From assembly GCF_006716745.1 (NCBI RefSeq), contig NZ_VFPP01000001.1:6955386-7019385 (forward strand): a DNA stretch of 64,000 bases, given 5' to 3'. This document shows positions 15,272-51,666 of this stretch, in pieces. A program made the translations under genes and the position numbers. Numbering within the stretch: the stretch's first letter is position 1; every line of letters begins with the position of its first letter. The notes beneath the pieces were generated by a model. The model was not told the DNA's origin. It did no database searches and was given only the letters and a program-made list of their open reading frames with translations. Source of the DNA: Saccharothrix saharensis (GTDB lineage: Bacteria > Actinomycetota > Actinomycetes > Mycobacteriales > Pseudonocardiaceae).

Positions 15272-16345
15272 GTGTCGAGAATCCGCCTGGTGGCGGCGAT
15301 CGCCGCCGTCGTGGTCGGGGCCGCGCTGACCGTCGTCGCGGCCAACTCCGCCTCCGCCGCCGCGTGCGCGTCCGCGTGGAGTTCGTCCGCCGTCTACACC
15401 GGCGGCATGACGGCGTCCTACAACAACAAGAACTGGCGAGCCCAGTGGTGGACCCAGAACGAGACCCCCGGCACCGCCGCGGTCTGGGCCGACCAGGGCA
15501 CGTGCGGCGGCACGACGACCCCGCCGCCGACGACGTGCAACCACCCGAACTGGGTGCAGGGCCAGTTCTACGCCGCGGGCAGCATCGTCAAGTACACCAA
15601 CGGCCTCTACTACATCGCCGAGCACGACAACCCGGGTTACGACCCCACGATCAGCACCTGGTACTGGGAGCCCTACACCTGCGGCACGAACCCGCCGACC
15701 ACCACGACCACCCCGCCGGCGACCGGCGGCTTCGTGGTCAGCCAGGCGCAGTTCCAGCAGATGTTCCCGAACCGGAACCCCTTCTACACCTACGCCGGGC
15801 TCACCGCGGCGCTGAGCGCGTACCCCGGTTTCGCCAAGACCGGCTCGGACACCGTCCGCAAGCAGGAGGCGGCGGCGTTCCTGGCCAACGCCAACCACGA
15901 GACCGGCGGCCTGGTCCACATCGTGGAGCAGAACCAGGCGAACTACCCGCACTACTGCGACGCGGGTCAGCCCTACGGCTGCCCCGCCGGCCAGGCGGCC
16001 TACTACGGCCGCGGTCCCATCCAGCTCAGCTGGAACTTCAACTACAAGGCCGCGGGTGACGCCCTCGGCCTGCCGCTGCTGACCAACCCGTGGCTGGTGC
16101 AGAACGACGCCTCGGTGGCCTGGAAGACCGCCCTCTGGTACTGGAACACCCAGTCCGGTCCCGGCACGATGACCCCGCACAACGCGATGGTCAACGGCTA
16201 CGGCTTCGGCGAGACGATCCGCAGCATCAACGGGTCGCTGGAGTGCGGCGGGCGCAACCCGGCGCAGGTCCAGAGCCGCGTCGACGCCTACCAGCGGTTC
16301 GTCGGCATCCTCGGCGTGCCCGCGGGCAACAACCTGTACTGCTGA
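15272..16345 (+). CDS. Secreted GH19 chitinase with two CBM5/12-type modules
   Basis: A 357-aa extracellular chitinase. A signal peptide (about 1-31) is followed by two short chitin-binding modules: residues 32-78 (aromatic WRAQWW patch) and about 89-137 (YYIAEHDNPGYDP, WYWEPY), joined by Thr/Pro linkers. The GH19 domain spans about 155-357. NHETGG supplies catalytic Glu210, and Glu219 nine residues on fits the spacing of Streptomyces ChiC-type enzymes; YYGRGPIQLSWNFNY is the substrate-binding signature. The GTG at 15272 is chosen because the signal peptide starts there. A DasR-like box upstream and an LPMO with the same box nearby suggest a chitin regulon. Confidence 0.94.
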   Translation: MSRIRLVAAIAAVVVGAALTVVAANSASAAACASAWSSSAVYTGGMTASYNNKNWRAQWWTQNETPGTAAVWADQGTCGGTTTPPPTTCNHPNWVQGQFYAAGSIVKYTNGLYYIAEHDNPGYDPTISTWYWEPYTCGTNPPTTTTTPPATGGFVVSQAQFQQMFPNRNPFYTYAGLTAALSAYPGFAKTGSDTVRKQEAAAFLANANHETGGLVHIVEQNQANYPHYCDAGQPYGCPAGQAAYYGRGPIQLSWNFNYKAAGDALGLPLLTNPWLVQNDASVAWKTALWYWNTQSGPGTMTPHNAMVNGYGFGETIRSINGSLECGGRNPAQVQSRVDAYQRFVGILGVPAGNNLYC

Positions 16346-17227: not shown

Positions 17228-17971
17228 ATGAGCCTGAAACGCAAGCTCGCGGTGGCGCTGGCCGCCGTGGGCATCACCCCGTTCTTCGTCGTGATGTCGG
17301 CGGGAACGGCGAGCGCGCACGGCTACATCTCCTCGCCGCCCAGCCGGCAGGCGATGTGCGCGCAGGGGCGGATCTCGAACTGCGGTCCCATCGTCTACGA
17401 GCCGCAGAGCGTGGAAGGCCCCAAGGGCCAGTACAACTGCCACGCCGGGTTGAGCCAGTTCGCCCAGCTCAACGACGACAGCCGCGCCTGGCCCACCACC
17501 TCGGTGGGCAACAACGTGACGTTCAACTGGACGCTCACCGCCCGGCACTCCACCACCACGTGGCAGTACTTCGTCGGCGGCACCAAGATCGCCGAGTTCA
17601 ACGACGGCGGCCGGCAGCCCGCGGCCACCGTGACGCACAACGTGAGCCTGGGCGGGCGCACCGGCCGGATCAAGCTGCTGGCCGTGTGGAACATCGCCGA
17701 CACGCCCATGGCGTTCTACTCGTGCGTCGACCTCCAGGTGGGCTCCGGTGGCGGCACGCCGACCACCACGACCACGCCGACGACCACCACCACGCGGCCC
17801 ACGACGACCACGTCCCAGCCGCCGGTCGGCGGCACGTGGGCGCCCAACACCGCGTACTCGGTCGGCTCGACGGTGACCTACGGCGGCGTCAGCTACCGCT
17901 GCATCCAGGCCCACACGTCCCTCGTGGGCTGGGAACCGCCGAACACCGCGTCGCTGTGGCAGCGGCTCTGA
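17228..17971 (+). CDS. Secreted AA10 lytic polysaccharide monooxygenase with CBM5/12
   Basis: A 247-aa copper enzyme that oxidatively cleaves crystalline chitin (or cellulose) outside the cell. The signal peptide ends with TASA, leaving His31 as the new N-terminus (HGYISSPPSR). His31 and His107 (LTARHSTTTW) form the copper histidine brace, and Phe163 in the NIADTPMAFYSC block is the usual axial aromatic. AA10 spans 31-174. A Thr-rich linker leads to a CBM5/12 module (about 203-247, YSVGSTVTYGGVSYRC). A perfect DasR box precedes it; the AGGAG before ATG 17228 is clear. It probably works with the GH19 chitinase. Confidence 0.95.
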   Translation: MSLKRKLAVALAAVGITPFFVVMSAGTASAHGYISSPPSRQAMCAQGRISNCGPIVYEPQSVEGPKGQYNCHAGLSQFAQLNDDSRAWPTTSVGNNVTFNWTLTARHSTTTWQYFVGGTKIAEFNDGGRQPAATVTHNVSLGGRTGRIKLLAVWNIADTPMAFYSCVDLQVGSGGGTPTTTTTPTTTTTRPTTTTSQPPVGGTWAPNTAYSVGSTVTYGGVSYRCIQAHTSLVGWEPPNTASLWQRL

Positions 17972-19557: not shown

Positions 19558-20181
19558 TCAGTCCAGGTTCGTGAACTCCACCTGGTAGCCCAGCGCGCCG
19601 AACATGCCGGTGAGCATCTTGCGCGTGTTGTCCTCCGCGCGCCGCACCAGCCCGGACTCGCGGGCCGCGTCCGCGATCTTCTGCTCCGCCGCCACGTAGA
19701 ACGGCTGCTGGTCCTGGGTCTCCACCAGCGAGGCCAACCGGTCGAACAGCCCGCGCTCCTGCGCGAACACGTAACACCGCCCCTGGTCCAGGTTCGGCTT
19801 GTCCAGCACCGCGCGCGGCAGCGCCAGCCGCACCTTCCGCGCCTCACCGGAGGCGTTCGTCGGCGACACCGCCAGCGCGTCCTCGCCCAACCCGCCGAAG
19901 TCGACGTAGGCGTTCACGGTCCCGGCCGCCACGAACAGCGTCCGCTGCCCGGCCAGCGCCGACGGCACGTACCGGACGTCCCGCTCGATGTCGAGCACCA
20001 CCTGGAAGTCGCCCGCCGAGGCGTGGTACTGGCTCAGGTCCCGCAAGGACTGCAGCAACGCGGGCCGGCTGCGGTCGATCGTGTCCGTGCCCGCGAAGAA
20101 CCGGGGCACCACCAGGACCGCCGCGACCAGCACCCCGACCGCCACCAGCACCGCCGCCGCCACACCGATGCGCCACTTCAT
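19558..20181 (-). CDS. DUF4230 membrane-anchored protein
   Basis: A 207-aa protein with one N-terminal membrane segment (IGVAAAVLVAVGVLVAAVLV) and an outer domain containing YHASAGDFQVVLDIERDVRY, VNAYVDFGGLG and a long helical C-terminus (YVAAEQKIADAARESGLV). This layout is that of DUF4230, whose function is unknown. The start at 20181 immediately precedes the membrane segment; longer readings enter the dead SDR region. Confidence 0.78.
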   Translation of the reverse strand: MKWRIGVAAAVLVAVGVLVAAVLVVPRFFAGTDTIDRSRPALLQSLRDLSQYHASAGDFQVVLDIERDVRYVPSALAGQRTLFVAAGTVNAYVDFGGLGEDALAVSPTNASGEARKVRLALPRAVLDKPNLDQGRCYVFAQERGLFDRLASLVETQDQQPFYVAAEQKIADAARESGLVRRAEDNTRKMLTGMFGALGYQVEFTNLD

Positions 20182-20204: not shown

Positions 20205-20755
20205 CTACCGGGGAACCCCCGCGCCGTCGCGGAAGAACCCGCCGGTCGGCCCGTCGTCGCGCCACGTCGCCGCCCACACCACGCTCGCCGCGCCCCGCTC
20301 CACCGGCCGCCCGCCCGCGCCGCCCACGTCCGTGGCGCCCCCGCCGGGGCACCCGGCGTCGACCTCCATCGCGGGCAGATCGGCGGCCGACATCGAGGTC
20401 AGCGCGTTCAGCGCGGCTTTCGACGTGCCGTACGCGGGCGTCCCGCCGCCCATCGGCGCCGGCGACCCGGCCTCGCTCGACACGTTCACCACCGGCGGGC
20501 TGCGCGCCGCCCGCGGCAGCGGCAGCAGCCCCGCCGCGGCCCGGGGAAGTTGGTCTCCACGGCCGCCCGCGCGACCCCCGGATCGGCCGACGACGCGCGC
20601 TGCCGGGTGTCGTAGTGGATCGCCGCGTCGTCCACCGGCACGTCCACCCGCCCGTGCCGCCCGGTCAGGTGCCCGAGCGACGCGAGCTGACGGCACACCT
20701 CCAGCCCGGTGCCCCGATTCCCGCTCGTCACGTCCGCCACCGGTGCGTCCGCCAC
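20205..20755 (-). pseudogene. Broken SDR oxidoreductase gene
   Basis: Pieces in two frames read like one SDR. Near 20755-20560 the sequence gives DVTSGNRGTGLEVCRQLASL (degraded glycine motif) and RVDVPVDDAAIHYDT, and a second frame gives VVNVSSEAGSPAPMGGG, YGTSKAALNALT (Tyr-x3-Lys) and a C-terminus with GPTGGFFRDG. The glycine motif is mutated, internal parts are missing and a frameshift separates the halves. Not functional. Confidence 0.7.
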
Positions 20756-20863: not shown

Positions 20864-21097
20864 GTGTACGAGACGTTGAGGAACATCCTCGTCGACACGT
20901 TGAAGGTCGCGCCGGAGCAGATCACCCCGGACGCGACCAAGGACGACCTCGACCTGGACTCGCTGGCGTTCGTGGAGCTGTCCATGGTGCTCGGCAAGGA
21001 GCACGGCCTGCACATCAGCGACGACGAGCTGTTCGACATGGAGACCGTCGGCGACATCGTGGCGCTGATGGAGGAGCGCGCCGGGACGGGCAGGTGA
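20864..21097 (+). CDS. Acyl carrier protein
   Basis: A 77-aa acidic four-helix ACP. LDLDSLAFVEL holds the phosphopantetheine Ser33 in the DSL motif. Start GTG 20864 follows a GGGGAG site. It is the first gene of a compact set; its stop TGA overlaps the GTG start of the KAS II gene (GTGA), so the two are probably translationally coupled. It is likely a dedicated carrier for the downstream condensing enzymes and not the housekeeping AcpP, which usually sits beside fabD/fabH/fabF. Confidence 0.92.
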   Translation: MYETLRNILVDTLKVAPEQITPDATKDDLDLDSLAFVELSMVLGKEHGLHISDDELFDMETVGDIVALMEERAGTGR

Positions 21098-22305
21098 CCG
21101 GCCTGGACGTCGCGGTCACCGGGCTCGGCCTGGTCACCCCCGGCGGGGTGGGCGTGGACGCGGGCTGGGCGGCGGTGCTCGCGGGCCGGTCCGCCGCCGC
21201 GCACGACCCCGTGTCGGCGGGCCACGAGGTGACGATCTCGTGCCGCGTACCCGGCTTCGACGCCGACGCGCTGCTGGGCGCGCGGCGGGCCGTCCGGCTC
21301 GACCGGTTCTCGGCGTTGGCGCTGGTCGCGGCACGGGAGGCGGTCGCCGAGGACGACGTCACGGCGGAGGACGCGGCCCGGGTCGGCGTGGTGATCGGCA
21401 CGTCGGCGGGCGGCGGCGCCACGTTCGAGCGGCAGCACGGCGTGCTGCTGGCCGACGGGCCGACCGGGGTGTCCCCGCTGGTGCTGCCCATGCACCTGCC
21501 GAACATGGTGGCCGGGCAGCTCGCGATGGAGTTCGGCCTGCGGGGGCCGAACCTCGTGGTGTCGACCGCGTGCGCGTCCGGGGCCACCGCGATCGGTGTC
21601 GCGTGCGACCTGCTCGCCGCGCGGCGCTGCGACGTGGTGCTCGCCGGCGGGGTCGACGCGCTGCTCAACCCGTTGACCATGGCGGGCTTCGCGCGGATGG
21701 GCGCGCTGTCGCGGCGGGACGACCCGGCGACGGCCTCGCGGCCGTTCGACGTGGACCGGGACGGTTTCGTCGCGGGCGAGGGCGCGGCGGTGCTGGTGCT
21801 GCGGCGCGCCGAGGACGCGCGGGCCGACGGGCGGCGGGTCCGGGCGCGGGTCGTCGGGTACGGCGCGACCGCCGACGCGCACCACATCACCAACCCGCAC
21901 CCCGACGGGCGGGGCGTGATCGCGGCGACGCGGGCGGCGCTGGCCGACGCGGGCGCGTCACCCGCGGACGTCGGGCACGTCAACGCGCACGGCACGTCCA
22001 CGCAGCTCAACGACCTGGTCGAGGGGCGGGTGCTGGCCGAGCTGCTGCCGTCGGGGCCGCTGGTGACGTCGACCAAGGGCGTGACCGGGCACATGCTGGG
22101 CGCGGCCGGCGCGGCGGAGGCGGTGTTCACCGTGCTGGCGGTGGAGCGGGGGGTCGTGCCGCCGACCGCCAACCTGACCACCCTCGACCCGCGATTGGAG
22201 CTGGACGTGGCGACCGCGGCGGTGCGGCGGCGGGTCGACCTGGCGTTGAGCAACTCGTTCGGCTTCGGCGGCCAGAACGCGGTGCTGGCCATCGCGAAGG
22301 CGTGA
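21094..22305 (+). CDS. Beta-ketoacyl-ACP synthase II (FabF-like)
   Basis: A 403-aa elongating condensing enzyme with a complete Cys-His-His triad: STACASG (Cys160), NAHGTSTQLND (His299) and KGVTGHMLGAAGA (His333). It should extend acyl-ACP with malonyl-ACP. It sits between ACP (overlapping start) and KAS III (10-bp gap). The complete triad argues against a chain-length-factor role; no second KAS II is present, so this is not the two-subunit type II PKS arrangement. Confidence 0.93.
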   Translation: MTGLDVAVTGLGLVTPGGVGVDAGWAAVLAGRSAAAHDPVSAGHEVTISCRVPGFDADALLGARRAVRLDRFSALALVAAREAVAEDDVTAEDAARVGVVIGTSAGGGATFERQHGVLLADGPTGVSPLVLPMHLPNMVAGQLAMEFGLRGPNLVVSTACASGATAIGVACDLLAARRCDVVLAGGVDALLNPLTMAGFARMGALSRRDDPATASRPFDVDRDGFVAGEGAAVLVLRRAEDARADGRRVRARVVGYGATADAHHITNPHPDGRGVIAATRAALADAGASPADVGHVNAHGTSTQLNDLVEGRVLAELLPSGPLVTSTKGVTGHMLGAAGAAEAVFTVLAVERGVVPPTANLTTLDPRLELDVATAAVRRRVDLALSNSFGFGGQNAVLAIAKA

Positions 22306-22315
22306 AGGAGGGGCG

Positions 22316-23278
22316 ATGTCGGTGATCCTCGGCGTGGGCGCGAGCGTGCCGCGGCGGGTCGTGACCAACGACGAGCTGGCCACCCGGCTGGACACCTCCG
22401 ACGAGTGGATCCGGTCGCGCACCGGCATCGGCGCGCGGAGGTGGGTGGAGCTGGGCACGTCCACTTCGGACCTGGCCGCGGACGCGGGCGCGCGGGCGTT
22501 GCGCTCGGCCGGGAGGTCCGCCGTGGACGCGGTGATCGTGGCCACCACCACGCCGGACCGGACGTGCCCGGCGATCGCGCCCGCCGTGGCCGCGCGGCTG
22601 GGTCTGGTCGGCGTGCCCGCGCACGACGTGGCGGCGGTGTGCACCGGGTTCCTCTACGGCCTGGCCAACGCCGTCGGGCTGATCGCGAGCGGCGCGGCGC
22701 GGACCGTGCTGCTGGTCGCGGCCGAGGCGTTCTCCACCATCCTCGACCCGGACGACCGCGGCACGGCGGTGATCTTCGGCGACGGCGCGGGCGCGGTGGT
22801 GGTGGGTGAGGGCGAGGACGGGATCGGGCCGTGCGTGCTGGGCAGTGACGGCACGGGCGCGGACCTCATCCAGGTGCCCGCGGGTGAGCGCTACTTCCGG
22901 ATGAGCGGCAAGGAGGTGTTCCGGGCGGCGGTCGAGCGGATGGCGGACGTGTCGCTGGACGCCCTGGCCCGCGCCGGCCTCGACCTGGCCGACGTCGACC
23001 ACCTCGCGCCGCACCAGGCCAACCGGCGCATCTGCGACGCCGTCGCCCGCCGCCTCGGCCTGGCCGGGTCGAAGGTGCTGGCGGACCTGGAGGCGGTGGG
23101 CAACACGGCCGCCGCCTCGATCCCCGTGCTGCTCGCCGACGCCGCCGCGCACGGCCGGCTGAAGGCGGGTGACCGCGTCCTGACCGCGGCCTTCGGCGGC
23201 GGCCTGACCTGGGGCGCGACCACCCTCGTCTGGCCGGACGTGACCGCGGACTTCGGCGTGCTGGGGGAGGACCGGTGA
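22316..23278 (+). CDS. Beta-ketoacyl-ACP synthase III (FabH-like)
   Basis: A 320-aa initiating condensing enzyme. The Cys-His-Asn triad is intact: AAVCTGFLYGL (Cys109), APHQANRRI (His233) and VGNTAAASIP (Asn263). It should load the first acyl group from acyl-CoA onto malonyl-ACP. AAGGAGGGG precedes the ATG. Having its own KAS III suggests this cassette makes its own starter and does not branch from housekeeping fatty acid synthesis. Confidence 0.93.
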   Translation: MSVILGVGASVPRRVVTNDELATRLDTSDEWIRSRTGIGARRWVELGTSTSDLAADAGARALRSAGRSAVDAVIVATTTPDRTCPAIAPAVAARLGLVGVPAHDVAAVCTGFLYGLANAVGLIASGAARTVLLVAAEAFSTILDPDDRGTAVIFGDGAGAVVVGEGEDGIGPCVLGSDGTGADLIQVPAGERYFRMSGKEVFRAAVERMADVSLDALARAGLDLADVDHLAPHQANRRICDAVARRLGLAGSKVLADLEAVGNTAAASIPVLLADAAAHGRLKAGDRVLTAAFGGGLTWGATTLVWPDVTADFGVLGEDR

Positions 23279-23327
23279 CCGGGCACGCCGAAGTCGCCGG
23301 CCACCTCCCGTCTCCGGTGGAGGTTCC

Positions 23328-23675
23328 GTGAGCAGTTTCCCGTCATCCCCTGTCGAGGTCGTGGAGCGGTCCGGCCCGACGGCTGTCGCGCGCGTGCGGC
23401 TCGCGGCGGACGACCCGGTGTTCGCGGGGCACTTCCCGGGCCTGCCCGTCCTGCCCGGCGTGGCCGTGGTGGAGTTCGCGCACCGCGCCGCCCTCGCCAC
23501 GGCGCCCGGTGCCCGGCGGCTCGCCGCGATCGAGTCCACCCGGTTCCTGCGCCCCACCTTCCCCGGCACCACCCTCACCCTCGACCTGACCTGGGACGGC
23601 GACCGGTGCGCCGCCGTGGTCAGCGGCGCGGACGGCGTGGTGGCCCGGATCAAGCTGCGCTACGAGGAGCCGTGA
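23328..23675 (+). CDS. Hotdog-fold dehydratase subunit with the FabZ catalytic motif
   Basis: A 115-aa single hotdog protein. FAGHFPGLPVLPGVAVVEF is the FabZ catalytic segment with His35 and Glu49, the two residues needed for 3-hydroxyacyl-ACP dehydration. The N-terminal FabZ motif (LPHRxPxLLVDR) is absent here but is present in the next gene. The GTG start follows GGAGG. The stop TGA shares a base with the ATG of the second hotdog gene. The pair could form a heterodimeric dehydratase, this chain bringing the catalytic residues. Confidence 0.83.
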   Translation: MSSFPSSPVEVVERSGPTAVARVRLAADDPVFAGHFPGLPVLPGVAVVEFAHRAALATAPGARRLAAIESTRFLRPTFPGTTLTLDLTWDGDRCAAVVSGADGVVARIKLRYEEP

Positions 23676-24109
23676 TGATGCCGTCCGACATCCTGCGCGT
23701 GCTGCCCCACCGCCACCCGATGCTGCTGGTGGACCGGGTGGTCGACGTGACGCCCGGCGAGGCGCTCACCGCCCTCAAAGCGGTCAGCGCCAACGAGCCC
23801 TGGTACCGCGCGCCCGACGACTTCCCGCCCACGTTGCTGCTGGAGTCCTGGTGCCAGGCCGCCGTGCTGCTGTCGACGTGGGACGCGCCCGACCCCGACC
23901 GGCTGGTCCTGTTCGGCGCGATGGCGGACGTGGAGTTCCACCGGCCCGTCCCGCCGGGCTGCGTGGTGCGGCACTCGGTCCGCGTCCTGGACGCCCGCGG
24001 TGCCGCGGTGGCGTTCACCGGTCGGTCGGAGGCCGAGGGGCACGTCGTGATGACCGTCGGTCGGGTCGTCACCACCTCGCGTGCCGCGGCCGACCTCCGG
24101 AACTCGTAG
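23675..24109 (+). CDS. Second hotdog-fold protein, FabZ-like without the catalytic His
   Basis: A 144-aa hotdog protein opening with LPHRHPMLLVDRVVDV, the conserved FabZ N-terminal motif. Where FabZ has GHFPGxPVMPG the sequence is YRAPDDFPPTLLLES, about four residues shorter and without His, although the Glu (Glu57) is kept. It therefore probably lacks activity alone and pairs with the preceding chain. ATG 23675 overlaps the previous stop (TGATG); AGGAG lies five bases upstream, and a second ATG at 23678 is also possible. LipB follows 10 bp downstream. Confidence 0.8.
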   Translation: MMPSDILRVLPHRHPMLLVDRVVDVTPGEALTALKAVSANEPWYRAPDDFPPTLLLESWCQAAVLLSTWDAPDPDRLVLFGAMADVEFHRPVPPGCVVRHSVRVLDARGAAVAFTGRSEAEGHVVMTVGRVVTTSRAAADLRNS

Positions 24110-24119
24110 GGGGGTTGCG

Positions 24120-24800
24120 ATGCGGTTCCTGTACAGCGGTTTCGGGCCGGACGCGGTGTCGTACGAAGAGGCGTACGCCGAGCAACGGCGGCTGCACGCG
24201 TCGCGGGTCGCCGACGAGATCGGCGACGTCTGCGTGCTCCAGGAGCACCTGCCCGTCTACACGGCGGGCAAGCGCACCAAGGCCACCGCGTTCCCGCCCG
24301 ACGACGTGCCCGTGCTGACCGTGGACCGCGGCGGTGAGATCACCTGGCACGGTCCCGGTCAGCTCGTCGGCTACCCCGTGGTCAAGCTGCCGGTGCCGCT
24401 CGACTCGGTCGGCCACGTCCGCCGGCTGGAGGACGCGCTGATCGGGACGTGCGCCGAGTTCGGCGTCGCGTGCGCGCGGCTCGCCGGGCGCAGCGGCGTG
24501 TGGGTGCTCGGCGACCGGCCACCCGCACCGGAGGTGCCGCCGTCGGCCGCCCGCGCGCACGGGCAGCACCGCAAGATCGCCGCCATCGGCGTGCGCATCG
24601 AGCGGTGCACCAGCCTGCACGGGTTCGGGCTCAACTGCGACCCGGACCTGACCGCGTTCGACGCCATCGTGCCGTGCGGCATCGAGGACGCGGGCGTCAC
24701 CTCCCTGACCGCCGAACTCGGCCGTCGGGTCGCGCCGGCCGAGGTGGCGCCGGTGGTCGAACGTCACCTGACGAGGGTGTTCGCGGCCGATCGCCGGTGA
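24120..24800 (+). CDS. lipB: Lipoyl/octanoyl-ACP:protein transferase (LipB family)
   Basis: A 226-aa acyltransferase of the LipB fold. RGGEITWHGPGQLVGYPVV is the family signature, HRKIAAIGVRIERC carries the conserved Lys, and FDAIVPCGI the catalytic Cys. Classical LipB moves octanoate from ACP to lipoyl domains. Here the gene is the last of an ACP-KAS-hotdog series with no lipA next to it, so it may be either the housekeeping enzyme placed by chance or a paralogue that transfers the cassette's acyl product to a protein or amine (inference). Confidence 0.88.
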   Translation: MRFLYSGFGPDAVSYEEAYAEQRRLHASRVADEIGDVCVLQEHLPVYTAGKRTKATAFPPDDVPVLTVDRGGEITWHGPGQLVGYPVVKLPVPLDSVGHVRRLEDALIGTCAEFGVACARLAGRSGVWVLGDRPPAPEVPPSAARAHGQHRKIAAIGVRIERCTSLHGFGLNCDPDLTAFDAIVPCGIEDAGVTSLTAELGRRVAPAEVAPVVERHLTRVFAADRR

Positions 24801-24815
24801 CGGCCGACTGCTCGG

Positions 24816-24893
24816 TCACTTGCCCACCCACAGGGTGTTGCCGTCATCGCACTTCCACTCGTCCCGGTAGCCGAGGAACCCGCCGGCGGTCAT
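24816..24893 (-). pseudogene. Short remnant, possibly the tail of a methyltransferase-like gene
   Basis: A minus-strand frame ends [21 protein letters not shown] and runs upstream without a ribosome-binding site into the end of the ispG fragment, which overlaps it in another frame. Its third-position bias is good over the last 25 codons. It looks like the C-terminus of a lost gene; a methyltransferase is only a guess. Confidence 0.3.
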
Positions 24894-25182
24894 GGCGGTC
24901 AGGCGGTGCGTGGTCGCTCCTCGGGTGGGCCGGCGGATCGTCGGCCGCCAGGCCGACGCGCTCGACCCGGGCCGGCGCGCTCCCGGCCGCGCCGGCGATG
25001 CGCGTGGCCTCCTCGATCAGCGTCTCCACGATCCGGTGCTCGGGCACGGTCTTGACGACCTTGCCCTTGACGAAGACCTGGCCCTTGCCGTTGCCGGACC
25101 CCACCACGAGCCGGCGGGCCCTGCGCCGCCCCGACAACACCGGAGGAGGCATCACGGGAACGCCCGGGTCGACGGTGCTCAC
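24844..25182 (-). pseudogene. ispG: Internally deleted ispG (HMBPP synthase)
   Basis: The GTG start at 25182 overlaps the dxs stop (GTGA). The first residues ([20 protein letters not shown]) match the N-terminus of actinobacterial IspG. The sequence then passes directly and in frame to [19 protein letters not shown] and [12 protein letters not shown], its last 40 or so residues. About 300 central residues, including the TIM barrel and the iron-sulphur cysteines, are missing. The remaining 112-codon frame also carries an unrelated 45-residue tail. It cannot make IspG, but it shows that a dxs-ispG operon once stood here. Confidence 0.8.
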
Positions 25183-26945
25183 GACGCCCACCCCGGCAGG
25201 AAGCGGGCCACCGCGCGGGCGATGCCGGCGGCGTCCAGGTCGTGCATCCGCAGGATGTCGGCACGCGACCCGTGCGGCAGGAACTCGTCGGGCAGCCCGA
25301 GGACCCGCGTCCGACGGCTCACCCCGGCCTCCCGCAGCGCCGCGGCCACGGCCTCGCCGACCCCGCCGCCGCGCACGCCGTCCTCGACGCACACCACCAC
25401 GCGGTGCTCGGCCGCCAACGCCACCACCGCCGGGTCGACCGGCGACACCCACCGCGGGTCGCACACGGTCACCCCGATGCCCTCGCCCGCGAGCGCCACC
25501 GCGGCGGCCACCCCGTCCGCCGCGAGCGCGCCGACGGTCACCAGCAGCACGTCCCGCCGCGACGACCGGTGCAGCACGTCCACCCCGCCGAGCCGGTCCA
25601 CCGCGGCGACGTCCGCGCCGATCGCGCCCTTGGGGAAGCGGACCGCGGTCGGCCCGTCGTCGGCGACCGCCTCGTCCAGCAGCTCGCGCGACCGCGTGCC
25701 GTCCCGCGGCGCGGCCAACCGCATCCCGGGCACCACGCGCAGCAGCGCCAGGTCCCACACGCCGTGGTGGCTCGGCCCGTCCTCACCGGTCACCCCCGCC
25801 CGGTCGAGCACGAACGTCACCGGCAGGCGGTGCAGCGCCACGTCCATCAGCACCTGGTCCACCGCCCGGGTCAGGAACGTCGAGTACACCGCCACCACCG
25901 GCCGCAGCCCGCCCATGGCCAGCCCCGCCGCGCACGTCACGGTGTGCTGCTCGGCGATCCCCGTGTCGAACACCCGGTCGGGGAACGCCTCGGCGAACGC
26001 CGTCAACCCGGTCGGGTGCAGCATCGCCGCGGTCAGGCACACCAGGTCCGGGTGCCGGTCGGCCAGCACCAGCAGGTGCTGCCCGAACACCGACGTCCAC
26101 CCCGGGCCTCGGGACGTGGCCGGCGCGGACACGGTGTGCAGGCGGTCCACCGGATCGTTCTCCGCCGGCGGGTGACCCTTGCCCTTGGTCGTCACGCAGT
26201 GCACGACGACCGGGCGGCGCAGCGCCTTCGCGGCGGTCAACGCCTCCTCCACCCGGAGGACGTCGTGCCCGTCGACCGGGCCGAGGTAGTGCAACCCGAA
26301 GTCCGCGAACACACCCGCGCCGGCCCCCGCGCGCAGGGCGGCGAGGTGCCTGCCCACGGCGCCCGCCGTCGGCCCGTAGGACCGGCCGTTGTCGTTGAGG
26401 ACCACCACCACCGGGTGGTCCACGTCGCCGAGGTTGTTCAACGCCTCCCACGCCATGCCGCCGGTGAGCGCGCCGTCCCCGACCACCGCCACCACGTGCC
26501 GGTCGTGCTCGCCCCGCAGCCGTGCCGCCCGCGCCAGCCCGTCCGCATAGGACAGGGCGGTGGACGCGTGCGAGTTCTCCACCAGGTCGTGCGGCGACTC
26601 CGCGCGGCTGGGGTAGCCGGACAGGCCGCCCTCGCGGCGCAGGTCGGCGAACCCGTCGACCCGGCCGGTGAGCATCTTGTGCACGTAGGACTGGTGGCCG
26701 GTGTCGAACACGACCCGGTCGTGCGGTGACCGGAACACCCGGTGCACGGCCAGCGTCAGCTCCACCACGCCGAGGTTCGGCCCGAGGTGGCCGCCGGCCC
26801 GGGTGACCGCCCCGACCAGGCGTGCCCGCAGCTCCCGCGCCAGCTCCTCCAGCGCGGCGGCTGACAGACCCGACAGGTCGGCCGGTCCGGCGATCACGGG
26901 CGCCGGTGCCCGGACGGCCCCGGGAAGGGTGGTGGTGTCGGTCAT
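25179..26945 (-). CDS. dxs: 1-deoxy-D-xylulose-5-phosphate synthase
   Basis: A 588-aa thiamine-diphosphate enzyme making DXP from pyruvate and glyceraldehyde 3-phosphate, the first step of the MEP isoprenoid route. Seen: [14 protein letters not shown], the ThDP motif [18 protein letters not shown], the transketolase pyrimidine domain ([17 protein letters not shown]) and the C-terminal domain. The ATG at 26945, six bases after GGAG, is preferred over 26957. It is slightly shorter than housekeeping Dxs (about 630). Beside a polyprenyl synthase gene and with an ispG remnant in the same operon, it looks like a secondary, pathway-dedicated copy. Confidence 0.93.
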
Positions 26946-27366
26946 CAGCCACTCCATGCGGTGCGGGAGTCCTTGCGGTGACGGGGGATGTGGCGAACGT
27001 GCCGCACCCCGACGACCGGTACAAGCGCGCCGACGCGTTTCACGCGGACGGGTTCCCGGGTGTTACCCGGTCGTGTGCGTGTCGTTCCCCGAAATCGGGG
27101 GAGTGTCGTGCCTCAGCGTCGCCGAACGCGCCTCCGTCACCGTCACCGGGCGGATGTGCGGGCGAGAAGTGCAGGTAGTCCGGGTCCGAGCGGCCCCGAA
27201 CGGGGTCGGCGACGGCGGTCGGCCGCCGGTCCCGCCGCACCGGTGTTAGCTTCGGACGGCCGGGAGGTGACCACGTCCGACCGCCGGAACGTCACCGTGT
27301 GCACTCACCGCGTCCCCTCCCCACGTCCTCGCCGGAACCGGTCCTGTTCGCGCCTGTGGAGGTCCC
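26946..27366. promoter_or_regulatory. Divergent promoter region between dxs and the polyprenyl synthase gene
   Basis: The 421 bp hold no convincing gene. Two small inverted repeats stand out: CCGGGT-3-ACCCGG (27056-27070) and CCCCGA-2-TCGGGG (27087-27100). Either may be an operator for the divergent isoprenoid genes. No clear -10/-35 pair was assigned. Confidence 0.4.
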
Positions 27367-28449
27367 ATGACAGTCATCGACGCCGTGCGCGGCGACCTCG
27401 CCGAGGTCCGCGCCGAGGTGGACGCGACGCTCGACCGATTCCTCGCGGAGAAGGCGCGCACCGCGCCGGACCCCTGCCTGCCGCCGCTGGTGGACGTGCT
27501 GCGGGAGTTCGTGGCCGGTGGCAAGCGATTGCGCCCGTTGTTCTGCCACTGCGGCTACGTCGCCGCGGGCGGGTCACCGGACGACCGCGCGGTGGCCTGG
27601 GCCGGCGCCGCGCTGGAGATGTTCCACACCTTCGCGCTGGTGCACGACGACATCATGGACCGCTCCGAACTGCGCCGCGGCCGCCCCACCGTGCACCGGG
27701 CGCTCGCCGAGCGGTTCGCGGGCCGGGGTGCCGGTGACGGGCACGCCGCCGAGCGGTTCGGCGCGAACCTGGCCATCCTGGCGGGTGACCTGTGCTTCAC
27801 GTGGACCGACGAGGTGCTCGACCGGGCCGACGTCGACCAGCGGCGGTGGCGGGCGGTGCGGGCGCTGTTGCACACCATGCGCACCGAGCTGATCGCCGGG
27901 CAGTTGCTGGACCTGGGCGGTGACCCGCGGTCACCGGCCGACCCGGTGCGGTCGGCGTGGCGGACGATCCGGCTCAAGACCGCCCGGTACACGGTGGAGC
28001 TGCCGCTGCGCATCGGCGTGGCGCTGGCCGGCGGCGACGCGGCGCTGATGCGGGTGTGCGGTGCGTACGGCCGGCCGGTCGGCGAGGCCTACCAGCTCCG
28101 CGACGACCTGCTCGGGATGTTCGGCGACCCCGGGGTGACCGGCAAACCCCACCTGGACGACCTGCGCGGCGGCAAACCCACCGTGCTGATGGCGTTGGCG
28201 TGGCAGCAGGCGACCCCGGGGCAGCGCGAGGTGATCTCGGCCCTGCACGGGCATCCGGAGCTGGACGAGGAGGGCGCGACGCGGCTGCGGGACGTGGTGG
28301 TCGCGACCGGGGCGGCGGCGCGGGTCGAGCGGCTGATCACCCTCCGCGCCGACCGGGCGCTGGGCGCGCTGCGGTCGTCGTCGATGAGCCCGGCCGCGAA
28401 GGCGCCGCTGGCGGAGCTGGTCGCCCACGCGACCCGTCGCGCCCGGTGA
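27367..28449 (+). CDS. Polyprenyl (probably geranylgeranyl) diphosphate synthase
   Basis: A 360-aa all-helical trans-prenyltransferase. The first Asp-rich motif is DDIMD (94-98), the second DDLLGMFGD (246-254); GGKRLRP near 51 and the KPT segment near 270 are the other diphosphate-binding sites. The first motif has no insertion and an aromatic residue (Phe89) five positions before it, a pattern described for C20-type enzymes of the short-chain class, so GGPP is the best guess. It is divergent from dxs. No terpene cyclase or phytoene synthase gene is in the window, so the end product is not visible. Confidence 0.88.
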   Translation: MTVIDAVRGDLAEVRAEVDATLDRFLAEKARTAPDPCLPPLVDVLREFVAGGKRLRPLFCHCGYVAAGGSPDDRAVAWAGAALEMFHTFALVHDDIMDRSELRRGRPTVHRALAERFAGRGAGDGHAAERFGANLAILAGDLCFTWTDEVLDRADVDQRRWRAVRALLHTMRTELIAGQLLDLGGDPRSPADPVRSAWRTIRLKTARYTVELPLRIGVALAGGDAALMRVCGAYGRPVGEAYQLRDDLLGMFGDPGVTGKPHLDDLRGGKPTVLMALAWQQATPGQREVISALHGHPELDEEGATRLRDVVVATGAAARVERLITLRADRALGALRSSSMSPAAKAPLAELVAHATRRAR

Positions 28450-30879: not shown

Positions 30880-31614
30880 ATGAGCAGAACGTCCGTGCAG
30901 CTGTACTCCGTCCGCGACGCGTTCGCGGCCGATCCCGCCGACACCCTCCGCCGCCTGGCCGGCATCGGCTTCACCGCCGTCGAGCCCTACGGCGTGGTGG
31001 AGAACGCCGACGTGCTGCGCACCGCGTTGGCCGAGCACGGCCTCACCGCGCCGACCGCACACGCGCAGCTCATAGGCGCGGACCAGGACACCGTCTTCTC
31101 CGTCGCGGCCGAGTGCGGCATCGAGGTCGTCATCGACCCGTACGTCGGCGAAGAGCGGTGGCGGGACCCGGCGGACATCGCCGCCACCGCCGCCGCGCTC
31201 AACGCCGCCGCCGAGGTCGCCGCCCGCCACGGCGTCCGCGTCGGCTACCACAACCACTGGTGGGAGCTGGCCTCCCGGGTCGACGGCCGCAGCGCGTTCG
31301 AGGTGCTGGCCGACCGGCTCGACCCGGCGGTGGTGCTGGAGGTCGACACCTACTGGGCCACGGTCGGCGGCGAGGACGCGCCCGCGTTGCTGCGCCGGCT
31401 CGGCGGCCGGGTGCACGCGATCCACGTCAAGGACGGCGGTCTCGCGCGGGACGGGTCCGGGCAGGTCCCGGCCGGCCAGGGCCGCGTGCCGGTGGTCGAG
31501 GTGCTCGCCGCCGCACCGCGGGCGTTGCGCGTGGTCGAGTTCGACGCCTACGACGGTGACGTGTTCGCCGGTCTCGCCCGCAGCCGCGCGTTCCTCGCCG
31601 AGGTGGGGGCGTGA
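30880..31614 (+). CDS. Sugar phosphate isomerase/epimerase family protein (cytoplasmic)
   Basis: A 244-aa xylose-isomerase-like TIM barrel. VGYHNHWWELA carries a conserved His near the active site, VVLEVDTYWATVGG the metal-binding Glu/Asp strand, and AIHVKDG the following His and Asp. Family members isomerise or epimerise keto-sugars and cleave 3-ketoglycosides. ATG 30880 is favoured (six bases after AGGAG) over GTG 30877. Its stop overlaps the GTG of the oxidoreductase gene (GTGA), so both proteins are made together. Two palindromes upstream suggest sugar-responsive repression. Confidence 0.88.
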   Translation: MSRTSVQLYSVRDAFAADPADTLRRLAGIGFTAVEPYGVVENADVLRTALAEHGLTAPTAHAQLIGADQDTVFSVAAECGIEVVIDPYVGEERWRDPADIAATAAALNAAAEVAARHGVRVGYHNHWWELASRVDGRSAFEVLADRLDPAVVLEVDTYWATVGGEDAPALLRRLGGRVHAIHVKDGGLARDGSGQVPAGQGRVPVVEVLAAAPRALRVVEFDAYDGDVFAGLARSRAFLAEVGA

Positions 31615-49956: not shown

Positions 49957-50046
49957 GACGACGATTGTGTCGGTAGGTCGGCGGCGGGCAAGCACGAATA
50001 GCGTTGTCGCTGGTGAGCGGGTTGCCGGCTGCGGTACGTTGCCGTG

Positions 50047-51666
50047 ATGGCGCAGCTCAGCTACTCCTCGGCGACCTCCGACGTGCCGCTGCTGGGCGAC
50101 ACCGTCGGCGCGAACTTCGACCGCGCGGTGGCCGCGCACGGCGACCGGGAGGCGTTGGTCGACCGCCCGTCCGGCCGCCGGTGGACCTACCGCTCGCTGG
50201 CCGCCGAGGTGGACTCGGTCGCGGCCGGGCTGGTGGCGTCCGGCGTCGAGGTCGGCGACCGCGTCGGCATCTGGTCGCCCAACCGCGCCGAGTGGGTCGT
50301 GGTCCAGTACGCGACCGCGCGGATCGGGGCGATCCTGGTCACCGTCAACCCCGCGTACCGGGTGCACGAGCTGGAGTACGTGCTCAACCAGTCGGGCGTG
50401 CGCACGCTGTTCGCCGCCGCGTCGTTCAAGACCTCGGACTGCGCCGGGATGATCGCCGAGGTCCGGCCCCGGTGTGCCGCGCTGCGCCAGGTGGTGCTGT
50501 TCGACAGTCCCGAGTGGACGGAACTGCACGCGGAGCCGTTGCCGGAGTGGCCGGAGCTGTCCGCGGACGACCCGATCAACATCCAGTACACGTCCGGCAC
50601 CACCGGGTTCCCGAAGGGCGCGACCCTGTCGCACCACAACATCCTCAACAACGGCTTCTTCGTCGGCGAGCTGCTCGGGTACACGGAGGACGATCGGATC
50701 TGCGTGCCGGTGCCCTTCTACCACTGCTTCGGGATGGTCATGGGCAACCTGGCGGCGACGTCGCACGGTGCGTGCGTGGTGATCCCGGCGCCGGCGTTCG
50801 AACCCGCCGCCACGTTGCGCGCCGTGGCGGAGGAGCGGTGCACGTCGCTGTACGGCGTGCCGACGATGTTCATCGCCGAACTGGCCGAGGCCGACTTCGA
50901 CTCCTACGACCTGTCGTCGCTGCGCACCGGGATCATGGCCGGCTCACCGTGCCCGGTCGAGGTGATGAAGCAGGTCGTGGACCGGATGGGGATGCGCGAG
51001 GTGTCGATCTGCTATGGCATGACCGAGACCTCACCGGTGTCCACCCAGACCCGTCGCGACGACTCACTGGACCGGCGGGTGTCCACCGTCGGCCGGGTCG
51101 GACCGCACCTGGAGGTCAAGGTGGTCGACCCGGGCACCGGCCGCACCGTGCCCCGCGGCACCCCCGGTGAGCTGTGCACGCGCGGGTACTCGGTGATGCG
51201 GGGCTACTGGGAGCAGCCGGACAAGACCGCCGAGGCCATCGACCCCGCCCGCTGGATGCACACCGGCGACCTCGCCGTCATGGACGACGAGGGCTACATC
51301 ACCATCACCGGCCGGATCAAGGACATGGTGATCCGCGGCGGCGAGAACCTCTACCCGCGCGAGATCGAGGAATTCCTCCACACCCACCCCGACGTGGTGG
51401 ACGCACAGGTCGTCGGCGTGCCGGACGCGAAGTACGGCGAGGAACTGATGGCGTGGGTGAGGATGCGCCCCGGCACCGAACCACTGACCGCCGAGTCGCT
51501 GCGCTCCTTCTGCGCCGGCAAGCTCGCCCACCACAAGATCCCCCGATACGTGCACGTGGTCGACGAGTTCCCGATGACCGTCACCGGCAAGGTCCGCAAG
51601 GTCGAGATGCGCCGCCAAGCCATCCGAATCCTCGACCTCCCCATCGACGCCGCCCGCCACGCCTGA
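50047..51666 (+). CDS. AMP-dependent fatty acyl-CoA synthetase
   Basis: A 539-aa adenylating enzyme activating a carboxylic acid to acyl-AMP and acyl-CoA. Motifs in order: [11 protein letters not shown] (P-loop), [12 protein letters not shown] (A5), [30 protein letters not shown] (A7), [20 protein letters not shown] (A8) and the catalytic Lys in [12 protein letters not shown] (A10). The hydrophobic pocket suggests a medium- to long-chain fatty acid. ATG 50047 directly follows a GTG; either can start. It is followed by low-complexity DNA. Confidence 0.93.

Follow-up and report, generated by a model that had tools for sequence, protein, structure and literature searches.

A six-gene cassette of carrier, ketosynthase, dehydratase-like and LipB-type genes in Saccharothrix

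A stretch of 64,000 nucleotides from the genome of the soil actinomycete Saccharothrix saharensis (contig NZ_VFPP01000001.1, positions 6,955,386 to 7,019,385 of the forward strand; hereafter the window), which occupies 6.955-7.019 Mb of the 8.92 Mb single-contig genome, contains a cassette of six genes that lie on the + strand in one tight run at window positions 20864-24800. In gene order these encode an acyl carrier protein (ACP), an elongating ketosynthase (KAS II), a starter ketosynthase (KAS III), two hotdog proteins and a LipB-type octanoyltransferase. The cassette is real and maintained; it joins parts of three known kinds in a new way and has so far been seen only in this genus. It illustrates the combinatorial assembly of actinomycete acyl-chain modules, as a recurring trio core (ACP, KAS II and KAS III), a dehydratase (DH) pair of the kind found with polyene-type polyketide synthases (PKS) and, in one lineage, a second LipB are joined. 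Judging from the sequences, the cassette probably constitutes a private acyl-ACP branch of the type II fatty acid synthase (FAS) that would borrow a ketoreductase (KR) and an enoyl reductase (ER) from the primary FAS.

Gene content and active-site residues

The cassette comprises the following genes, given in window coordinates:

20864-21097, + strand: ACP, private acyl carrier protein, GTG start, 77 aa, PF00550 at E 3.8e-14, serine in a DSL motif
21094-22305, + strand: KAS II, elongating ketosynthase, 403 aa, PF00109/PF02801
22316-23278, + strand: KAS III, starter ketosynthase, 320 aa, PF08545/PF08541
23328-23675, + strand: hotdog 1 (DH1), predicted His-bearing dehydratase subunit, 115 aa, PF22818 (ApeI-like) and PF07977
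23675-24109, + strand: hotdog 2 (DH2), predicted Glu-bearing dehydratase subunit, 144 aa, PF07977
24120-24800, + strand: LipB-type octanoyltransferase, an extra copy, 226 aa, PF21948

Successive genes overlap by 4 bases, are separated by 10 and 49 bases, overlap by 1 base and are again separated by 10 bases. The initial annotation, which described six genes with overlapping or near-abutting ends holding their own carrier and condensing enzymes, two hotdog proteins and a LipB, is thus upheld with one 49-base gap, and the gene calls of the block agree with it that KR, ER and malonyltransferase are absent from the six genes. A scan for promoters and terminators returned 0 of each.

KAS III exceeds the cut-offs of the NCBIfam models NF006829 and TIGR00747, and KAS II exceeds that of NF005589 and stays below the fabF equivalog TIGR03150 (425 vs 493.75 bits). 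LipB passes NF010925 (275 bits, cut-off 155) and TIGR00214 (117.6, cut-off 83.55) and lies under the cut-offs of three further LipB models, and ACP and DH1 are under every NCBIfam cut-off displayed. KAS II, ACP and DH1 thus do not reach the respective equivalog thresholds of fabF, acyl carrier protein and FabZ, and by these scores each is a peripheral member of its family. The condensing-enzyme triads are intact as first described, since the Cys-His-His triad and the Lys of KAS II are in place in an alignment to T. thermophilus FabF and other solved relatives, and the Cys-His-Asn triad of KAS III in an alignment to FabH structures. K152 and C186 of LipB align with the Lys/Cys pair of M. tuberculosis LipB (1w66), and the aligned residues of all three enzymes presumably have the catalytic roles of their counterparts.

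FabG and FabI, each above its curated cut-off, are encoded at 7809137-7810652 (7.809 Mb) of the genome, and a run of fabD-like, fabH, ACP and fabF-like genes is located at 3.23 Mb, the fabD-like protein being under the TIGR00128 cut-off; the reduction steps are therefore available outside the block. LipB ordinarily transfers eight-carbon acyl chains to proteins. There are two LplA/LipB-type genes in the genome, that of the cassette and one of housekeeping type, which is located at 3.203 Mb, about 4.5 kb from lipA (lipA and lipB names confirmed by profile). This copy rules out the candidate reading of the cassette LipB as the sole LipB of the genome, in which case the initial annotation would have taken it for a housekeeping enzyme. 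The cassette LipB resembles the housekeeping type, as represented by 1w66, in its family and Lys/Cys pair, but is 55% identical to the housekeeping copy of its own genome, has about 13 additional residues before the Lys and, in contrast to the lipB of the lipA-lipB locus, is neither a neighbour of lipA nor the sole lipB. Its closest named match is a LipB of Saccharothrix luteola (92%).

Distribution, maintenance and history within the genus

The cassette was located in 25 genomes of the genus (G000 being that of the window) through KAS III matches of 80% or more, with the best 5 candidates per genome scored, a depth at which the absences hold. Genes in the other genomes were called with our own codon-usage caller, some missed ACPs being recovered by tblastn, and loci L200, L201, L238 and L239 were covered in part. 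Cassette-type KAS III is present in 9 of the 25 genomes, the window's included, and adjoins a DUF4230 gene every time. In these nine the ACP-KAS II-KAS III trio occupies one chromosomal site (ACPs checked by tblastn), with ACP orthologs of 88-95% in the eight other genomes. All six genes are contiguous in G000, G059, G065 and G072. G070 and G077 also contain all six, with one additional gene between hotdog 2 and LipB, which encodes a pentapeptide-repeat protein in G070 and a protein with no Pfam match in G077, and reduced sets are found in G060, G061 and G069. The genome of the window carries a second copy at 0.89 Mb (L114) that is composed of five genes, lacks LipB and has an ACP at 83%. Its surroundings (acyl-CoA dehydrogenase, ThiF family, amidase, thioesterase) gave no pointer to the product; nearby, at L114 3116-6182, genes for an acyl-CoA dehydrogenase, a protein with no Pfam match and a ThiF-family protein have overlapping ends.

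The gene content and order shared with other genomes of the genus show that the block is not a chance assembly, and the natural copies at one site that have or lack the DH pair and LipB provide a ready comparison of each part's role. Conservation of the gene order beyond the genus, which had been considered possible, is not seen for the six genes as a set: among 390 genomes of the family (best 7 candidates per genome scored), 7 have a cassette-type LipB, all of them of the genus and all with the trio at the same site. Housekeeping-type LipB is present in 25/25 genus genomes.

The site is flanked in the window by the following genes, which are not part of the cassette:

19558-20181, - strand: DUF4230 gene, left flank
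25179-26957, - strand: dxs, right flank
27367-28449, + strand: polyprenyl (GGPP-type) diphosphate synthase (GGPPS), right flank

At eight of the nine sites dxs, GGPPS or both make up the far flank, G059 having GGPPS with only a remnant of dxs; in G061 both genes are missing there. A DUF4230 locus was identified in 15 of the 16 cassette-free genomes, with none at threshold in G067, and tblastn found no cassette genes at these 15 loci, one stretch being limited to 12 kb. The cassette-free site reads SDR-dxs-GGPPS in G071 and SDR-terpene synthase-dxs-GGPPS in G075, SDR denoting a short-chain dehydrogenase/reductase. As these two genomes hold dxs and GGPPS without the cassette, the isoprenoid genes are independent of it, a functional tie was rejected and the link that had been proposed to them is positional.

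An SDR remnant split over two frames is situated at 20223-20755 (- strand) of the window; in the same place G070, G072 and G077 have an SDR gene of 226 aa in one open frame, and G065 has two short open reading frames. The remnant was considered as the KR of the cassette and rejected on account of its opposite strand, its two frames and the presence of a 77-84% relative at the cassette-free sites of G071, G073, G075 and G078. Beyond LipB, a 68-aa protein that is intact in G060 and G070 is reduced to a remnant of 27 residues at window 24819-24899 (- strand). In these two genomes a terpene synthase (PF19086) adjoins dxs, and no match to this synthase was found in the window.

Selection was assessed as pairwise omega (NG86) at the site, over eight loci for the trio and six loci each for LipB, DH1 and DH2. 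Omega is 0.11-0.29 for ACP, 0.18-0.27 for KAS II, 0.17-0.34 for KAS III, 0.14-0.39 for LipB, 0.23-0.33 for DH1 and 0.21-0.52 for DH2. Flanking genes with orthologs at the site range over 0.11-0.37, values that exclude the G059 dxs remnant (0.63) and the distant G069 and G061 matches to the gene at 30895 (about 0.75). None of the aligned cassette matches contains an internal stop, and the TAG in the LipB match of G069 is its terminal stop. The cassette genes are maintained under purifying selection and are not decaying.

A KAS II tree of 40 rows (matches at E <= 1e-40 with a length of 330-460 aa; L003, on the same contig as L116, was excluded from trees and residue counts) unites the ten cassette copies in one clade (100/100). 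The second copy splits first, the remaining nine being held together at 98/97, and G060 comes next, before G061 + G069 and the other six, with weak support (92/66). The simplest history on this tree would have an ancestral DH pair with a single loss (G061/G069) and, for LipB, one gain and one loss (G061); different orders are possible too. For a LipB tree of 53 rows, 53 loci were taken, namely about every fourth locus of the similarity search plus three more, the genus loci except the window's, and L205; 52 passed the filter. In this tree the LipBs of the seven cassettes are united (100/100) and fall with Streptomycetaceae plus two further rows from actinomycetes, separated from the genus's own housekeeping LipBs (100/100). 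Because of this placement the cassette LipB is more simply explained as acquired than as duplicated, and probably was acquired, within a sample whose outside rows were chosen by similarity and which does not include other possible donors.

Relatives of the trio and of the dehydratase pair

KAS II was searched in 394 genomes drawn evenly from the larger class (best 4 candidates per genome scored), and matches at E <= 1e-115 were obtained in 20 of them, the window's included, leaving 19 loci outside the window's genome. An ACP is adjacent at 18 and a KAS III lies within three genes at 14 of these 19 loci, and relatives of LipB, DH1 and DH2 are found at none of them. Since ACP and KAS III recur at the related KAS II loci, the trio is, by this comparison, a recurring private starter and elongation set. 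The two closest KAS II loci (65-67%) adjoin flavin-reductase-like genes, and one of them also a FabI-like gene. At L195 9639-11953 the gene after KAS III encodes a serine--tRNA ligase (above the cut-off of the serS model), and upstream there are flavin-reductase-like and FabI-like genes; by eye, L196 and L229 resemble L195.

A set of similar composition is FabF3/FabH4 of the calcium-dependent antibiotic, which reportedly has its own ACP. As outlined in its source, this set makes hexanoyl-ACP with enzymes of the primary FAS, and it resembles the cassette in that both have a private KAS II and KAS III and borrow the remaining FAS steps (PMC9136287). Measured against it, the cassette encodes KAS II, KAS III and ACP together, with KR and ER outside the set, elsewhere in the genome. 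The FabF3/FabH4 set feeds a nonribosomal peptide and HxcO/HcmO tailoring, whereas the cassette has the DH pair and LipB, with no nonribosomal peptide synthetase (NRPS) seen nearby. Other than LipB, no linked acyl-consuming enzyme such as an NRPS was found in the genes called up to about 10 kb away, on most of which Pfam was run; an AMP-binding enzyme is encoded 25 kb off (50044-51666). A literature search for LipB with such a cluster, judged by titles and the opening of abstracts, yielded nothing matching. The suggestion that the arrangement is an undescribed one stands for the six-gene combination, found so far only in the genus, but not for the trio, which is of the kind outlined for FabF3/FabH4 (PMC9136287).

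DH2 was searched in the 390 family genomes (best 10 candidates per genome), with 81 matching at E <= 1e-10, and 13 non-cassette loci were examined. All 13 hold proteins of the ketosynthase/chain length factor (KS/CLF) family, so read because the KS and CLF labels cross-match, together with a KR-type SDR and a DSBA-fold isomerase-like protein (L125 by tblastn). The residue counts, for which DH1 rows of 80-160 aa and DH2 rows of 120-180 aa were used and the fusion described below was left out, place the FabZ-type His in 19/19 DH1 rows and in 0/20 DH2 rows at that position, two DH2 rows having a His three residues earlier. A Glu is present in 20/20 DH2 rows, and DH1 is acidic there too (19/19). 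A natural DH1-DH2 fusion of 294 aa is encoded as one protein in G347 (L131 9190-10074), and DH1 matches ApeI-like PF22818 and chain 6qsr at 5.4e-10. The initial reading of a split dehydratase fits the His on DH1, the Glu on DH2 and this fusion.

Two characterised systems are comparable. ApeI/ApeP of aryl polyene synthesis is summarised as a heterodimeric dehydratase with a single active site (PMC8041823); the heterodimeric hotdog architecture predicted for DH1-DH2 is alike, the sequence is distant and ApeI/ApeP stem from a Gram-negative pigment pathway. In the highly reducing type II PKS for cinnamoyl lipid, which in outline also has a KR (GlaU) and an isomerase (GlaV), the dehydratase is composed of two proteins, GlaS and GlaT (PMC9381841), and the cassette pair is, by sequence, likewise a two-subunit hotdog dehydratase whose relatives come from clusters of the same make-up, GlaS/GlaT themselves not being aligned. 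By analogy, DH1 and DH2 may well form a heterodimer with a single composite active site. The cassette differs from the highly reducing systems in lacking CLF, KR and isomerase and in its FabF-like KAS II: the locus has one ketosynthase II-type gene and no KS-CLF heterodimer, and a 100/99 branch separates KAS II, on the side of FabF-like enzymes, from the KS found in highly reducing clusters. Membership of the cassette in this PKS class was rejected, there being no CLF and no KR. Elsewhere in the same genome lies a cluster that does resemble a highly reducing type II PKS (G000:C1:7915600-7922000, L203), with KS/CLF-family proteins, a DH pair, a KR and an isomerase-like protein.

Proposed function and alternative explanations

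It is proposed that in some members of the genus the block was inserted next to the DUF4230 gene and that KAS III would start a chain on the private ACP, which KAS II would extend. The chain would then be reduced by a shared FabG of primary metabolism and dehydrated by the DH1-DH2 heterodimer at a composite site, with the His from DH1 and the Glu from DH2. The double bond may or may not be reduced by a shared FabI/InhA, and a precedent may be seen in cispentacin synthesis, where FabI is, in the summary of that work, presumably recruited to a private ACP (PMC10698177). The private ACP would end up carrying an acyl chain of short to medium length, possibly an unsaturated one. In most genomes with the block a LipB stands at the 3' end and could plausibly move this chain, octanoyl or one like it, to a lysine of a protein; in LipB-free copies the chain would leave another way.

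Several findings weigh against this proposal. LipB, the sole block gene that could remove the chain, is missing from the cassette site of G060, from G061 and from the second copy, and the DH pair, absent from G069 and from G061, where the trio stands alone, is not essential to the trio. In the same pairs the synonymous divergence (dS) of DH1 is 1.9-2.9x and that of DH2 1.1-1.9x that of KAS II, which may reflect a separate history of the DH pair. KAS II has a small residue, A105, at the place that we take to correspond to Ile108 of E. coli FabF, and the alignment thus gives no hint of a stop at C8.

The action of LipB on the private ACP is the least certain part of the proposal, clearly less assured than the branch itself. 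The initial annotation suggested that the terminal LipB hands the acyl chain off to an amine or protein; LipB is not integral to the block, and given the copies without it LipB is not required. It is most likely a frequent but dispensable add-on. That it was recruited to off-load a private, possibly unsaturated acyl-ACP, with a non-lipoate acyl group passing to a protein lysine or an amine, is doubtful from the sequences at hand. Unloading of the private ACP by LipB would, if it takes place, widen the substrate range known for LipB, and if the group is other than lipoate, a lipoate-assembly enzyme would have entered specialised acylation. Only somewhat short of probable is the alternative that LipB is a hitch-hiker, a redundant octanoyltransferase using octanoyl-AcpP from the primary FAS, such that the functional unit has five or three genes. 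The LipB-free copies and the intervening gene in G070 and G077 favour this, as do its own ancestry and the lack of LipB relatives at all 19 related KAS II loci. However, LipB is under purifying selection despite the housekeeping-type copy in every genus genome, each of the seven family genomes with a cassette-type LipB carries the trio at the same site, and just 10 bases separate DH2 from LipB in the window.

The chain itself could instead be a conjugated polyene or dienoyl one, built by DH1-DH2 and KAS II acting as a small relative of the highly reducing type II PKS, and not saturated. This is unlikely: the absence of an ER from the block and the company of the DH1/DH2 relatives at all 13 non-cassette loci speak for it, but the block has no second, CLF-like ketosynthase and no KR, its KAS II falls across the 100/99 branch and the trio occurs without the DH pair. 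Mitochondrial FAS supplies octanoyl-ACP for lipoate, and a dedicated supply of this sort, in which the block makes octanoyl-ACP solely for LipB, would be consistent with a LipB behind an ACP/KAS II/KAS III set and with its residues in place. Yet the genome already has primary FAS, lipA and lipB, lipA is absent from the window and from all nine cassette stretches searched, copies without LipB exist and 16 of the 25 genus genomes do without the block at the KAS III threshold, which makes this explanation very improbable. The private acyl-ACP branch of type II FAS is the probable reading, with the chain length, the heterodimer chemistry and the borrowed reductases as its predicted features.

Elsewhere in the window, a class I chitinase (GH19 with CBM5/12) is encoded at 15272-16345 and a lytic polysaccharide monooxygenase (LPMO_10 with CBM5/12) at 17228-17971, and the two are perhaps a chitin-degrading pair.

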